Shown: piece by piece, positions 12,998-25,472 of the stretch
Position numbering within the stretch: position 1 is the first letter of the stretch
How the letters are laid out: each line of letters opens with the position of its first letter
Assembly (NCBI GenBank): GCA_002457675.1
Contig: NTKK01000001.1
Location: 62,001-126,000, forward strand
Reading direction: 5' to 3'
DNA from: Bacteroidetes bacterium MED-G17
Lineage (GTDB): Bacteria; Bacteroidota; Bacteroidia; NS11-12g; UBA9320
Length of the DNA stretch: 64,000 nt
Translations under genes and position numbers: made by a program
Notes under the pieces: generated by a model
What the model was told of the DNA's origin: nothing
What the model saw: the letters and a program-made list of their open reading frames with translations, nothing else
Database searches by the model: none

Positions 12998-14641
12998 ATG
13001 TCAATAAAAAAAACCATACTCAGCACCATGCTAATCGTTATGCTGTCTTTTCCTATTCTCGGGCAATACGCATTGCAACTACAATATTTCAAACACATCA
13101 AAAGAGAACGAGGGGATTTGCCCAATGGCTCTTTTGGGTGGCATAAGGCCTTTGTCAATGAAAATGGATGGATGTTTTTACTCAGTCCAGTGAGAGGAGC
13201 TTTTCAATTTGAAGACATCAATATACAAGGCGAGGAAGATAGTGTTTCAGGAAGCATTCTAATTGCTTTTGACAACAAAGGCAAAAAACGATGGCATCAC
13301 TATACTGATTCATCGGTAGGAGGAGGCCCAACACTAATATTGGGTGCGTGGGGAGATAATGGTGTTGTTACTTACTATGGTGTGGCTTTTTCAGATTTCT
13401 TGCATCTACCAGGTCATAAACGTATTAATTTTCCATCTGGAACTAAAGATGGGCTTGTACATTACGATTCTATGGGCAACATAGACAAAATAAAATTGTA
13501 CGAGTTAGAGGAAAAATTAGGTTTGGGTAGTGGTTCATTTCCCTTTCAAGGCAATTTGGTGAGTGCTTCATATTATGATGAAACCGTAACCATGTACGAT
13601 TGCGATTTGAATGTATTGCACCACCACAAGGTAAGGGCAGATTATGCTTCGGTCATTTTGGATGCAGCAGGCAATTGCTATTTCTTGGTGGATATTGGTG
13701 CCAAACGCAGCGAAAAGGTAAAAGGTAAAACCTATACAAATGACACAGACACCGCAGCTTGGCTTCTATTCAAATACAATGCACAAAACCAATTGCAATG
13801 GTATAAGCGTTTTAATACGGGCAAGGGCTTTGAAATCAACGACAACAAAATGTTGCGTATAAACAAGCGAAATGAGCTATTTGTAGCATTGCCTTTTATG
13901 GTGGATTTTGAAGTGGATGGCAATCTTTTGGTAGCCTATGCGTCGGGGCCAGTGGGTAAGCAAAAGACGGCCATCCTTCGCTTGGATGCAGCAGATGGCA
14001 AGCTGCTTAGCGCACACTATGACCCAGAAACAGCGCATAGCTTAAACGAGGTGCGCCAAGTGGTTTGGTTAGAAAATGACAAAAACGATGAAGTATATGC
14101 GTACTTATATGTAGAGGGCTTATTGGATTCTTTTGACCAGATAGGATTTGACAGCATCCGCAAATACCCGAGTAGAATAATACATTGGAATGCACAAACA
14201 AGCCACTCTGATCGTGCTTATGCCAATCAATCAGGTCGACGAGAAATAAGTGTATTGCCTAACCGACAAGTATTTTGGACTTTTCATATGTTTACTGACC
14301 TAACCAATTGGGTAGAGTAAAAAGCAGAATATTCAGAGGATGTCATTGTCGCAGTATTTGATACATTTCCATCCAAAGTATCGATAGTAGAAGCAGAAGA
14401 CGTTTTACAAAAAGTAGATTTGTATCCCAACCCCAACCAAGGGCTGGTGCATATTCACAATGGCGAAGACGAAACGGTAGCCATAAGCATTTACGAGGCA
14501 ACAGGCCGCTTAGTTAAGCAAGTATTTGTGGAAGCCAACAGCGATACAAAGGTTAATTACGGTGCATCACCTGGGGTGTACATCATTCATTTACTCAGCG
14601 AATCAGGCAAGCGCGCCAGCCGCAAAATGGCAAGGGAATAA
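12998..14641 (+). pseudogene. T9SS-secreted beta-propeller-like protein interrupted by an in-frame stop
   Basis: One reading frame runs from ATG 12998 to TAA 14641 but contains a TAA at 14318-14320. The upstream part (440 codons) has a signal peptide (ending near PILGQ) and repeated blade-like segments such as GSILIAFDNKGKKRWHH, DGLVHYDSMGNIDK, TAAWLLFKYNAQNQLQWYK and TAILRLDAADGKLL, typical of SBBP/propeller proteins exported by T9SS. After the stop the same frame continues without a break (KAEYSEDVIVAVFD ...) into a type A T9SS sorting domain: LYPNPNQGLVHIHN, ISIYEATGRLVKQV, SPGVYIIHLLSESG ending in K-R-A-S-R-K. The simplest reading is a nonsense mutation (for instance a lost Tyr codon) in a formerly 546-residue cargo protein. 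An assembly error is the alternative. Confidence 0.75.
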
Positions 14642-21425: not shown

Positions 21426-21875
21426 TTAAGTCAATTTAGACTTAAGTATAGAACTGATTGTTTTTCCATCTGCAGCACCCGCGGTTTTTGCTAAAATTAC
21501 AGGCATTACTTTGCCCATGTCTTTCATTGAAGTTGCGCCAGTTTCGCTTAATGTTTGATTGATTATTTTTTCTAAGTCTTCTTGACTCATTTGTTTGGGA
21601 AGAAATTTTTCAATTACATCAAGTTGCGCTATTTCTTTTTCTGCCAAATCAGATCTATGCTCTTTGGTAAATATTTCAATAGACTCTTTTCTTTGTTTAG
21701 CAAGTTTTTGAAGAATTTTATTTTCCTCAGCTTCAGATAAGTTTTTTTTAGCTCCAGTATCTGTTTGAGCCAATAAAATAGCTGCCTTAATGGCTCTTAA
21801 AGCTTCTAAAGTGGTCTTATTTTTATTTTTCATGGCCACTTTCATTTCTGCCATTATGTTATTTTGTAAACTCAT
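21426..21875 (-). CDS. GatB/YqeY domain protein
   Basis: A 149 aa helical protein matching the YqeY family, which shares the tail domain of the GatB amidotransferase subunit and probably binds tRNA. Typical stretches are LEALRAIKAAILLAQTD, EENKILQKLAKQRKESIEIF, ARKE-like spacing to LPKQMSQEDLEKIINQ, and the ending GKVMPVILAKTAGAADGKTI. The start codon overlaps the stop of the upstream phosphosulfolactate synthase-like gene by one base. The exact cellular role is not established. Confidence 0.85.
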   Translation of the reverse strand: MSLQNNIMAEMKVAMKNKNKTTLEALRAIKAAILLAQTDTGAKKNLSEAEENKILQKLAKQRKESIEIFTKEHRSDLAEKEIAQLDVIEKFLPKQMSQEDLEKIINQTLSETGATSMKDMGKVMPVILAKTAGAADGKTISSILKSKLT

Positions 21876-22678
21876 TAGATGCGCAAATCTCCGGGTTTTC
21901 TTCCTGGTTTTGGGTGTTCTCCATCAAGAAAAAAAGTAAAACTATCTCCTCTAAGTCCTATTCTAAGGGCTTCGAGCGCCAAAATTTCATTTGGTGCAAT
22001 ATTTCCTAAACTTACATTACAACCGTATAGTTTGATAAACCAAACTTGTTGTGCTTTTTTTGGGGCTTCCCAAATAATGTCTTCTTGTGAAATTTTGGTT
22101 AGGATTTCTTCAACCAATCCCGATCGTACTTCACCAGAACCTCTAAATATACCTACGGTTCCACTTTCTCTTGCTTCTGCAATCACTTTCCATGAACCAG
22201 CTTCTATTTCTGCATTCATCATTTCTATCCATTTGTAGGGCGGAATAATTTTCTCTGTATCTTTTGACCCAACTTCACTTAAGACTTTGTAGTTTTTTGC
22301 AAATCGTCGAATCAATTCGCATTTTTCGTCAGAAGGGATATCAATAGAACCATCAGATATTTCTAGATGCCGTAAACCTAAATCATCTAAGAGACTTTGA
22401 TAAGCGTCTAACATATTGCGAACATAAAATGCTTCGAACAATGTACCACCTAAGTATACTGGTATTCCAGCATTGCGATATACGGAAATTTTGTCCTTTA
22501 ATCTTGGCGTAACCATTGAGGTGCCAAACCCTAATTTGATGATATCTATGTACTCGGCGCCTGTTTCTGCTGTATTTTCTGCTTCTCGAATGCTAAGGCC
22601 TTTGTCCATAACCATCGTAATGCCAGCGTTTCGAGGTTTTTGAGTTCTTTCAGGAATTTGGGTTAATGAAAAGTTCAC
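21875..22678 (-). CDS. Phosphosulfolactate synthase-like (ComA family) TIM-barrel enzyme
   Basis: A 267 aa protein of the (2R)-phospho-3-sulfolactate synthase family, which in methanogens adds sulfite to phosphoenolpyruvate in coenzyme M synthesis. Family landmarks seen: GITMVMDKGLSIREAENT, DIIKLGFGTSMV, the strand YLGGTLFEAFYVRN, LEISDGSIDIP, VLSEVGSKD, and NIAPNEILALEALRIGLRGD. Bacteroidota do not make coenzyme M. A link to sulfonolipid (capnine) or other sulfonate synthesis through cysteate is an inference. It lies between YqeY and a TPR protein, which do not help. Confidence 0.8.
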   Translation of the reverse strand: MNFSLTQIPERTQKPRNAGITMVMDKGLSIREAENTAETGAEYIDIIKLGFGTSMVTPRLKDKISVYRNAGIPVYLGGTLFEAFYVRNMLDAYQSLLDDLGLRHLEISDGSIDIPSDEKCELIRRFAKNYKVLSEVGSKDTEKIIPPYKWIEMMNAEIEAGSWKVIAEARESGTVGIFRGSGEVRSGLVEEILTKISQEDIIWEAPKKAQQVWFIKLYGCNVSLGNIAPNEILALEALRIGLRGDSFTFFLDGEHPKPGRKPGDLRI

Positions 22679-22683
22679 AATAA

Positions 22684-24087
22684 TTAATTTTTATATAAGT
22701 CAATAAGGTTTTGAACAATTGAATCGTGTTCTAAGAAAGGTGCCATTTCAAAAAGCAGGTGATATTTTTCTACATCTATTTTAAGCGCCAAGGTGAGTGC
22801 GTCTTGAGCTTGATTTTTTTCTCCAAGAATAAAACGTGCAGCACTTAGATAATACAAAATGTGCGCATTGTCAGGCAAATATTGAAGGGCATCTTCTAAT
22901 AATTCGGCTGCCTCGCGGTATTGGCAATCTATTAGTTGATATTTTGCCAACAGCGTCCATCCAAAATACTCTTCTGGATTGTTTACTATAAATTCCGTGC
23001 ATAAATCAATAGATTTATCTATTTGATTGGTTTTGTAGTATGCCTCTGCGAGGCTAGCTGCATATTCTTGGTCTTGGTCTTCTAAGTAAAAAGCTTTTTC
23101 AAGAAAAGGGATGGCCTCTTTGTAATCTTCTTGGTTTGAAATGATACTTTGTCCCAGTCCAAACCATGCTTCGGTAACAAATTCATCTAGTTCTATTGCT
23201 CGTCTAAACTGTTTTTGAGATTCTTGATAGTTATTTATTCCCTCATAACAATTGGCAATGTCCGTTCTAGTTAGTGCATCTTCACCTCCAAATTCTAAGC
23301 ATTTAAGGAAATACTTTAAGGCTTGTTTGTATTGTTTTTGGTCATAATGCACTAGAGCTGAATTGTAAATTGCAGGCATGTAATTCTCGTTGATTATCAA
23401 ACTATAATCTTGCGCGTTTAAGGCCAACGTAGGTTCACCATTCGATTGGTGCATTAGTCCAAGAAAATGCCAAGCACCGAAGTTGTAAGGAGATTCATCG
23501 ATAACCGAGTTGAAAAAACGAATTCCATCCCTATATTTTTTTGCTTCGTCATAGTAAAAGTGCACATCTGCAAGAATGTGCTCGTTGAATTCTTTTTCAC
23601 TTGCTGCTTTTTCAAAAAATATAGCCGCTTGATCAGATCTGTCCGACATCAGATAACAGTTGCCAATGCACAACAATGTCTCCATTGAACTTTCAGCATT
23701 TTCCAAAGCGTTTAAGTAGTATGACAAGGCTTTGGTATAATCTTTCTCACGTTCATAAATTTCACCTAATAAAAAAAGAGAATCTATGTTACTGGGGTCT
23801 TTTTCAAGCGCGGTTTCCAGCATTTCAACACCTTCTTTAATTTTTCCTTGTAGTGTTAATACTTGCGCCCTCTTTTGATAATAAAAACTGTCAAAAGGAT
23901 ATAGTTCCTCACCTTTGTAAATGGCTTTAATTGCTAACTTTAACTTATTGGCAACTATGTAATGTTCTATGATACCCTCTAGCTCTTCACTATCGAAGAA
24001 CATATTATCATTAGCTGTCAATGACTGTTCGAATTTATCTAATAATTCGCTTAAGTTGGATTTTGGAAATTCGTCGTCGCTAAACAA
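22684..24087 (-). CDS. Tetratricopeptide repeat protein
   Basis: A 467 aa soluble protein built almost entirely of about eleven to twelve TPRs (for example IDSLFLLGEIYEREKDYTKA, FGAWHFLGLMHQSNGEPTLA, TEAWFGLGQSIISNQEDYKEA). The N-terminal ~70 residues are acidic and helical. No signal peptide or membrane segment is seen. It is 5 bases upstream of the ComA-like gene and so is probably the first gene of the YqeY unit. It presumably acts as a scaffold; the partner is unknown. Confidence 0.75.
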   Translation of the reverse strand: MFSDDEFPKSNLSELLDKFEQSLTANDNMFFDSEELEGIIEHYIVANKLKLAIKAIYKGEELYPFDSFYYQKRAQVLTLQGKIKEGVEMLETALEKDPSNIDSLFLLGEIYEREKDYTKALSYYLNALENAESSMETLLCIGNCYLMSDRSDQAAIFFEKAASEKEFNEHILADVHFYYDEAKKYRDGIRFFNSVIDESPYNFGAWHFLGLMHQSNGEPTLALNAQDYSLIINENYMPAIYNSALVHYDQKQYKQALKYFLKCLEFGGEDALTRTDIANCYEGINNYQESQKQFRRAIELDEFVTEAWFGLGQSIISNQEDYKEAIPFLEKAFYLEDQDQEYAASLAEAYYKTNQIDKSIDLCTEFIVNNPEEYFGWTLLAKYQLIDCQYREAAELLEDALQYLPDNAHILYYLSAARFILGEKNQAQDALTLALKIDVEKYHLLFEMAPFLEHDSIVQNLIDLYKN

Positions 24088-24182
24088 TTTCTTTTAAAAC
24101 TATTCAAATCTAACCAAACCATCAATATTCACTATAATTGAACGAACTTAAATTACTTTCAAGTATCAACAACTTTTCCCAT

Positions 24183-25472
24183 ATGAAAAAAATACTTTTT
24201 TGCCTTTTTGTATCCAGCATTTTTGCCAATGAGATTTGCGCACAAATTACCCATCAGAACACACAGGATTCAGCGCGTACAGGCAAAATACGAGGTATTC
24301 AACTTGCGTTGGGATGGAATACCTATGATAAGAGTATGTTGGGGTTCTAATTTCAAAATCGAAATAGTGAAAAATGGCATCTTAACATTGCTACGATGTA
24401 CGGTTTTGGCTCAAAGAATATTTTTGGTGTAGCGAACGCAGATTTTATCTTAAATGAAGCTACTCAATTGGGACTTGAGTCAAAGAGATTTTCATTTGAA
24501 CCTGCATTAATTGGTAGAGAAAATATTCTGTACACGAAGTTTCAACCCTATCTTAGATGGCAATATAAATCATCTGCTCAAAAGTCTTTTGACCGGTTTA
24601 TGGAATTAAATTTTAACAACCAATTTTTTGAAGAAAACTTCAATCTATTGTCCAAAAGAAAAGCTAGTTTAAACCCAAAATATCCTAAAATGGGTAATAG
24701 ATTTTTTCAAGTTTTAAAGTACAAGGCGGCCAACAAGAATAAAAACCAAGCTATACTGATTGAGTTGGAACATGCCATAACTTTCAACAAAATTTTGCAG
24801 GGGCGATTTGATACAATTAATGTAGATCGGAATCCAACAATAGTTTTAGATGATGAATTTACCGAGATAAGCAAAAGAAGCTCACACCTTAAATTAAACC
24901 TAAGTTGCACGAAAAAATTTCCGTTGCCCTATGGGAATAAAAAAATTAAGTTCAGGTATTTTTTTAGCACTTTTATTCAGAAACCAGACGATGAATTCTT
25001 TAATTATTGGGTAGGACAGAACAATGGTTTTTTTGACTACCGTTTTGATGAATATTTGCTTGGCAGGGGTGCTGAAAATGGCTTCTTTTATAACCAAATT
25101 ACAAAAAAAGGACTTCAAAGTAAATTTATTGGTAGATTTTTTCAATCAGATGATTGGATAAGCAATTTGAATACCGGAGTTGAATTGCCGGGTATTTTAC
25201 CTGTCGCATTGTATTTAGAAGTTTTGAGCAGTGGGAACCTGAAAAATCAATATTTTAATTCGGCTAAATCTCCCTTAATTTATAATGGTGGACTTTGTCT
25301 TGACTTTAAACTTGCAAAAATTTATGTCAATTTATTTCAATCAAAAAATATTACATCTAGCCAGCAAATTCAGGGTATTAACGATCTTTCGGAAAAAATG
25401 GCCTTCATATTTGATTTGAATAAAATTTTACGCAAGCCAAAAGTCGGTTTTCATCCTTTTAACGAACAATAA
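24183..25472 (+). pseudogene. Orphan M1-peptidase-type C-terminal domain, interrupted by an in-frame stop
   Basis: One frame runs from ATG 24183 to TAA 25472 but is broken by TAA at 24348-24350, after a signal peptide (ending near EICAQ) and about 35 mature residues; it then continues uninterrupted (FQNRNSEKWHLNIATMYGFG ...). The content resembles the C-terminal part of Bacteroidota M1 metallopeptidases: LALGWNTYDKSMLGF, YGFGSKNIFGVANADF, DEYLLGRGAENGFF, SDDWISNLNTGVELPG, LIYNGGLCLDFKLAKIYVNLFQS. The HExxH catalytic domain is absent, and the signal peptide joins the barrel-like part directly. Losing the peptidase domain would leave a non-catalytic product. The family resemblance is from memory of the pattern and needs a profile search. 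Confidence 0.55.

Follow-up and report, generated by a model that had tools for sequence, protein, structure and literature searches.

A probable young pseudogene of an M1-peptidase gene with a predicted Omp85-like barrel in Bacteroidetes bacterium MED-G17

The interrupted frame and its surroundings

The window (the whole stretch of DNA that was analysed, 64,000 nucleotides) contains on its plus strand, at 24183-25472, a frame with an ATG start and 429 codons ahead of its final stop, a TAA at codon 56 being among them. The features of the locus are as follows.

21875-22678, minus strand: ComA-family (PF02679) gene, the next conserved neighbour (synteny)
22684-24087, minus strand: TPR protein gene, divergent conserved neighbour of the M1 gene (synteny)
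24183-25472, plus strand: remnant of an M1-peptidase/Omp85-like-barrel gene, the interrupted frame including the final TAA (similarity, synteny)
24183-24257, plus strand: kept 5' end, coding for the signal peptide and the start of the mature protein as far as AQITHQ (aligns with the N-terminus of full-length relatives)
24258-24293, plus strand: deletion-junction zone, where the M1 part has lost about 560 codons (approximate breakpoint, given as a zone)
24294-25469, plus strand: C-terminal domain, predicted to fold as an Omp85-like outer-membrane barrel of 16 strands (predicted model, fold comparison)
24348-24350, plus strand: codon 56, a TAA in frame; in the model it falls between barrel strands 2 and 3 (frame, model)
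25035-25100, plus strand: encodes the domain's best-conserved segment (DYRFDEYLLGRGAENGFFYNQI), placed by the model in the strand 11-12 loop (conservation, model)

The frame starts like a signal peptide (MKKILFCLFVSSIFANEICAQ, ending in ...CAQ) and continues with about 390 residues that match the C-terminal part of Bacteroidota M1 peptidases, in agreement with an earlier note in which the signal peptide was said to lead straight into it. The single in-frame TAA at 24348 and the resumption of coding content described there were likewise recovered. After codon 56 a run of 373 open codons extends to the TAA at 25470-25472; by base composition alone the probability of such a run is about 3e-14. 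Each of the remaining five frames has 22-50 stops over this stretch. HExxH is absent from the frame, as the note had it, and a Pfam and NCBIfam scan of 24183-25472 gave no meaningful match. With neither HExxH nor a match to PF01433, the window gene falls outside the M1 metallopeptidases.

Reassignment of the stop codon was rejected by inspection; TAA terminates many frames of the window. An internal start at 24396 would give a product of 358 amino acids without a signal peptide, which should therefore be unable to make an outer-membrane barrel.

Another gene for a secreted protein in the window was also said to have a comparable lesion, and as far as the gene meant is identifiable this holds. 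At 12998-14638 (plus strand) a secreted frame of 440 amino acids (12998-14317) stops at the TAA at 14318 and runs on in frame for about 105 amino acids, a continuation that contains a T9SS sorting domain (PF18962, E 3e-10). Because one homolog (L140, genome G052) carries the sorting domain in the same 556-aa frame as the body, the stop seems to cut off the T9SS signal. The own genome has a SprA match in a frame of 2367 amino acids (G000:C3:36203-40579) and 44 sorting-domain matches in 1.67 Mb; judged from sequence, its T9SS looks alive.

Full-length relatives and gene order

Relatives were searched in 97 genomes, the own genome included, and 33 of these matched. The retrieved stretches gave 30 matching frames; 27 are longer than 900 amino acids, and the remaining three start at the very edge of their contigs (bases 1-3). 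The part downstream of the TAA matches the last approximately 400 residues of HExxH proteins of 922-1038 amino acids (best E 2e-39 in a single-protein search), which bears out the M1 C-terminus pattern proposed earlier. The best-matching relative, L035, has 30% identity over 391 residues (E 5e-43). The full-length relatives qualify as M1 metallopeptidases, with HExxH in all 27 frames above 900 amino acids and a Peptidase_M1 (PF01433) match above cut-off in all four relatives scanned, at about residues 344-506. A linker region follows at about residues 490-590, and in the C-terminal part of the same four proteins no Pfam family scored above cut-off.

A TPR-related gene adjoins the M1 gene divergently in 27/27 of the long relatives, with -48 to 99 bases between the open frames. 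The ComA-family gene is present in 25 of the 27 stretches, and the two misses (L042 and L048) are contig ends. Because this neighbourhood is conserved in the long relatives, the window gene is the original M1 gene in place. Both gene ends are kept and align with the full-length relatives. The AQITHQ that follows the signal peptide is also found in L057, with AQITRQ in L053, L056 and L058, and the C-terminal alignment begins near GIQLALGWN, the start of the barrel domain. The difference in length between relatives and remnant is about 991 - 429 = 560 residues, in frame. The missing catalytic half was not found in the window when the M1 parts of all 27 relatives were compared with it by tblastn (best E 0.09); one row placing L056 residues 3-33 on 24165-24257 (E 0.44) is weak taken alone. 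With both the gene neighbourhood and a homologous C-terminal domain in common, the window gene is, on this comparison of sequences, the positional ortholog of the Bacteroidia M1-barrel gene, whose product has 970-1038 amino acids, and not a duplicate.

The window copy shares locus, start and C-terminal domain with the approximately 1000-aa M1 metallopeptidases with C-terminal barrel of Bacteroidia (e.g. L035/L068, isolate P03SST1bin.8). In contrast to these it lacks the entire M1 part and carries a nonsense codon. The disabling lesions are the internal deletion and the TAA, and the orthologs in the relatives are intact.

The predicted barrel domain and its distribution

The structure prediction that the earlier note had recommended was run on the domain, with a model built from 12 sequences, the window sequence first and its stop read as X. 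The model (pLDDT 68, pTM 0.69) is a predicted barrel with 16 strands, counted from the DSSP list. The model of a full-length relative was poor (pLDDT 61, pTM 0.42) and was left out of the fold search. Foldseek against the PDB ranked chiefly BamA and Sam50 structures at the top (lowest E 7e-7, TM about 0.45). VIA-align gave Z 18.3 for yeast Sam50 (rmsd 4.2, 285 aligned), Z 17.9 for F. johnsoniae BamA (rmsd 4.5, 297 aligned), Z 17.3 for TamA (rmsd 3.6, 266 aligned) and Z 16.7 for CdiB (rmsd 4.0, 285 aligned), and these matches span domain residues 1-380, almost the whole domain. By title, 49 of the 50 VIA rows listed are BAM, SAM, TamA or CdiB and one is titled only 'membrane complex'; these rows re-examine Foldseek's own matches, and families outside the list may match as well.

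The strand number and the fold scores thus liken the domain to Omp85 barrels. Its most conserved stretch, DYRF...R...G.F.NQI, has an invariant Arg and is in the loop joining predicted strands 11 and 12, a low-confidence part of the model. Omp85 proteins carry a VRGF/Y motif in loop 6, and the Arg loop of the domain lies in the corresponding position. Unlike in Omp85 barrels the exact VRGF motif is absent, identity in the rows named is 7-10%, and no sequence-profile link was found, neither to an Omp85 family in a Pfam scan of 28 domain members nor to an Omp85 chain in a PDB profile search of the domain (both E<=1). The C-terminal domain is described as a predicted 16-stranded Omp85-like outer-membrane barrel. 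The TAA is found at model residue 19, and because this lies between strands 2 and 3, translation would stop before the barrel can form.

As far as tested, the N-terminal partner of the domain is M1, unlike in the POTRA-bearing Omp85 barrels. An enzyme placed N-terminal to an Omp85-type barrel is a feature in common with the patatin-like proteins (PlpD, type Vd) and other non-POTRA architectures in a 2014 survey of the Omp85 superfamily (PMC4104836). Ten architectures are given there, patatin and a PF00149 domain among them, so that the enzyme is one of these two rather than the M1 of the parent gene; the word 'peptidase' was counted 0 times in the survey. A 2026 review (PMC13067283) counts at least 12 members. 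No paper on an M1-Omp85 fusion was found in a literature search for which most subscription journals were outside reach.

An order-wide profile search found the domain in 69/108 genomes; among the matches listed only the own genome (G000) has a stop inside it. In a class-wide sample the domain was present in 268 of 396 Bacteroidia genomes, in frames mostly near 1000 amino acids among the matches listed. The match in G192 was flagged with a TAG; its frame is open, 1043 amino acids long, with HExxH present. Broken gene copies were found in G056 and G359 (frame changes) and in G182 (several breaks). The architecture of M1 peptidase and Omp85-like barrel is seen class-wide (e.g. L035:5806-8778, L044, L058); the parent architecture is widespread in Bacteroidia, with a predicted barrel that has no Pfam model.

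Ten genomes of the same family gave no domain match, and the ComA-family neighbour was found in nine of them. At seven of these nine loci there is no trace of the M1 gene beside the TPR gene, and at two the M1 gene is cut by a contig end. Because the gene is traceless at 7/9 neighbour loci, it is dispensable in the family.

Each short open frame inspected in the relatives proved to be cut off by a contig end, to belong to a frameshifted gene or to encode a protein of genus g11 with a different N-terminal half; no form with signal peptide and barrel and without another domain was found among them. The g11 proteins are intact, secreted-looking and 620-628 amino acids long, with a related barrel and an N-terminal half that gave no significant Pfam match:

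L098:1555-3414: g11 barrel protein
L099:4848-6731, minus strand: g11 barrel protein
L100:317-2185, minus strand: g11 barrel protein

With such a pairing in g11, the barrel is modular and not tied to M1.

Origin of the remnant and its meaning

The remnant is probably a young pseudogene that arose through an internal in-frame deletion and a nonsense mutation. This is suggested by the synteny, the two kept ends, the missing M1 half, the small number of lesions, the ordinary rate of the domain and the dispensability of the gene. The second secreted window gene with a like stop was also counted in its favour. The ancestor would have been a secreted protein of approximately 1000 residues in which a signal peptide was followed by an HExxH-bearing M1 zinc peptidase, a linker and the C-terminal Omp85-like barrel, the barrel presumably anchoring (or exposing) the enzyme at the outer membrane. 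The signal peptide would direct such a protein to the periplasm and BAM would insert the barrel in the outer membrane, which would hold the M1 zinc peptidase at that membrane. The enzyme could face the periplasm or else lie on the cell surface, the arrangement that has been proposed for patatin-type Omp85 proteins. A deletion of approximately 1.7 kb would then have taken everything between the first approximately six mature residues and the barrel, in frame, and the TAA at codon 56 would now end translation after the first barrel hairpin. The simplest history is that both events, in either order, followed on a gene that was functional until recently. The present product is a predicted secreted peptide of approximately 35 residues, presumably functionless. 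The earlier note had also suggested a stand-alone relative of the domain that has lost its function; the loss is probable, and the stand-alone relative finds no counterpart among the short frames inspected.

Both the deletion and the stop appear to be genuine and recent. The 429 codons contain one stop and zero frameshifts. The probability of 5% neutral divergence given these lesions is 0.004-0.008 at 0.05 indels per substitution, <0.0004 at 0.1 and 0.11-0.20 without indels, an estimate that rests on assumed indel rates; divergence this large or larger is accordingly unlikely. Over 24 taxa (L036, L041, L042 and L048 were left out as their genes are cut by contig ends) the ratio of query to median mean distance is 1.23 for the domain, compared with 1.14 for the TPR gene and 1.33 for the ComA-family gene. 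Because its ratio falls between those of the two neighbours, the domain is not specially fast. The window domain keeps 30/36 highly conserved residues; the range in the other 27 rows is 27/37 to 36/36. Its share is the lowest of the same-family rows and above the outgroup rows L061 and L062, and part of the relaxation may on these counts be older than the lesions suggest. Because 373 codons are open past the stop and so many conserved residues are kept, constraint seems to have lasted until recently. No same-genus genome for dN/dS was apparent among the 97 genomes or the 11 loci of a contig scan, so the dating and the order of the lesions are only inferred.

The open codons and the conserved residues were also counted against a pseudogene, and the deletion, being in frame and keeping the signal peptide, has the look of a selected domain loss; by chance an in-frame outcome is expected one time in three. 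These observations, together with the complete barrel, the rate that matches the neighbours and the g11 pairing of a related barrel with another N-terminal half, would fit a functional outer-membrane barrel without M1. In that case the TAA would be a strain polymorphism, an error of the assembly or a very young mutation. Such a barrel is unlikely, though the most probable of the alternatives: the TAA is present in the assembly, the corresponding form was not met with among the short frames inspected, and two recent lesions would give the identical pattern. Slightly less probable still is the full sequence of events in which one in-frame deletion stripped the enzyme from an M1-Omp85 fusion, the barrel worked alone and the TAA came later, polymorphic or as an artefact.

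Misassembly could account for the TAA or for the junction. It is quite improbable that it accounts for both, with a full-length gene in the population, contig ends wrongly joined and an error at 24348. The genome is a draft of 17 contigs (1.67 Mb, 99% complete), which leaves room for this, but the locus is on a single 230 kb contig with conserved neighbours to the left and intact frames to the right, the join is in frame, and the missing half was not found on other contigs. Searched in the own genome, the M1 half of the family finds only pieces of other M1 proteins with 22-25% identity (E 1e-5 and 2e-4); for this assembly gene fission with relocation of the M1 half was rejected on the same result. 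A partial duplication of an intact M1 gene elsewhere, which the earlier note had proposed and for which the four other M1-domain matches in the genome might speak, is very improbable, as no second match of the C-terminal domain was found in the own genome, the catalytic half is absent and the remnant occupies the ancestral locus. One of the M1 proteins of the genome has a T9SS sorting domain (645-aa frame, G000:C15:65471-66421; L003, L115) and is a possible substitute for the lost enzyme.

Read as a young pseudogene, the remnant itself is an ordinary one in a small genome. Its main value is as a pointer to the architecture of M1 peptidase and Omp85-like barrel, the domain occurring in two of every three Bacteroidia genomes sampled. 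The natural loss of the enzyme half raises the question whether the barrel has a function independent of the enzyme. A lone working barrel, if true, would show a route by which bare Omp85 barrels without an N-terminal domain originate.
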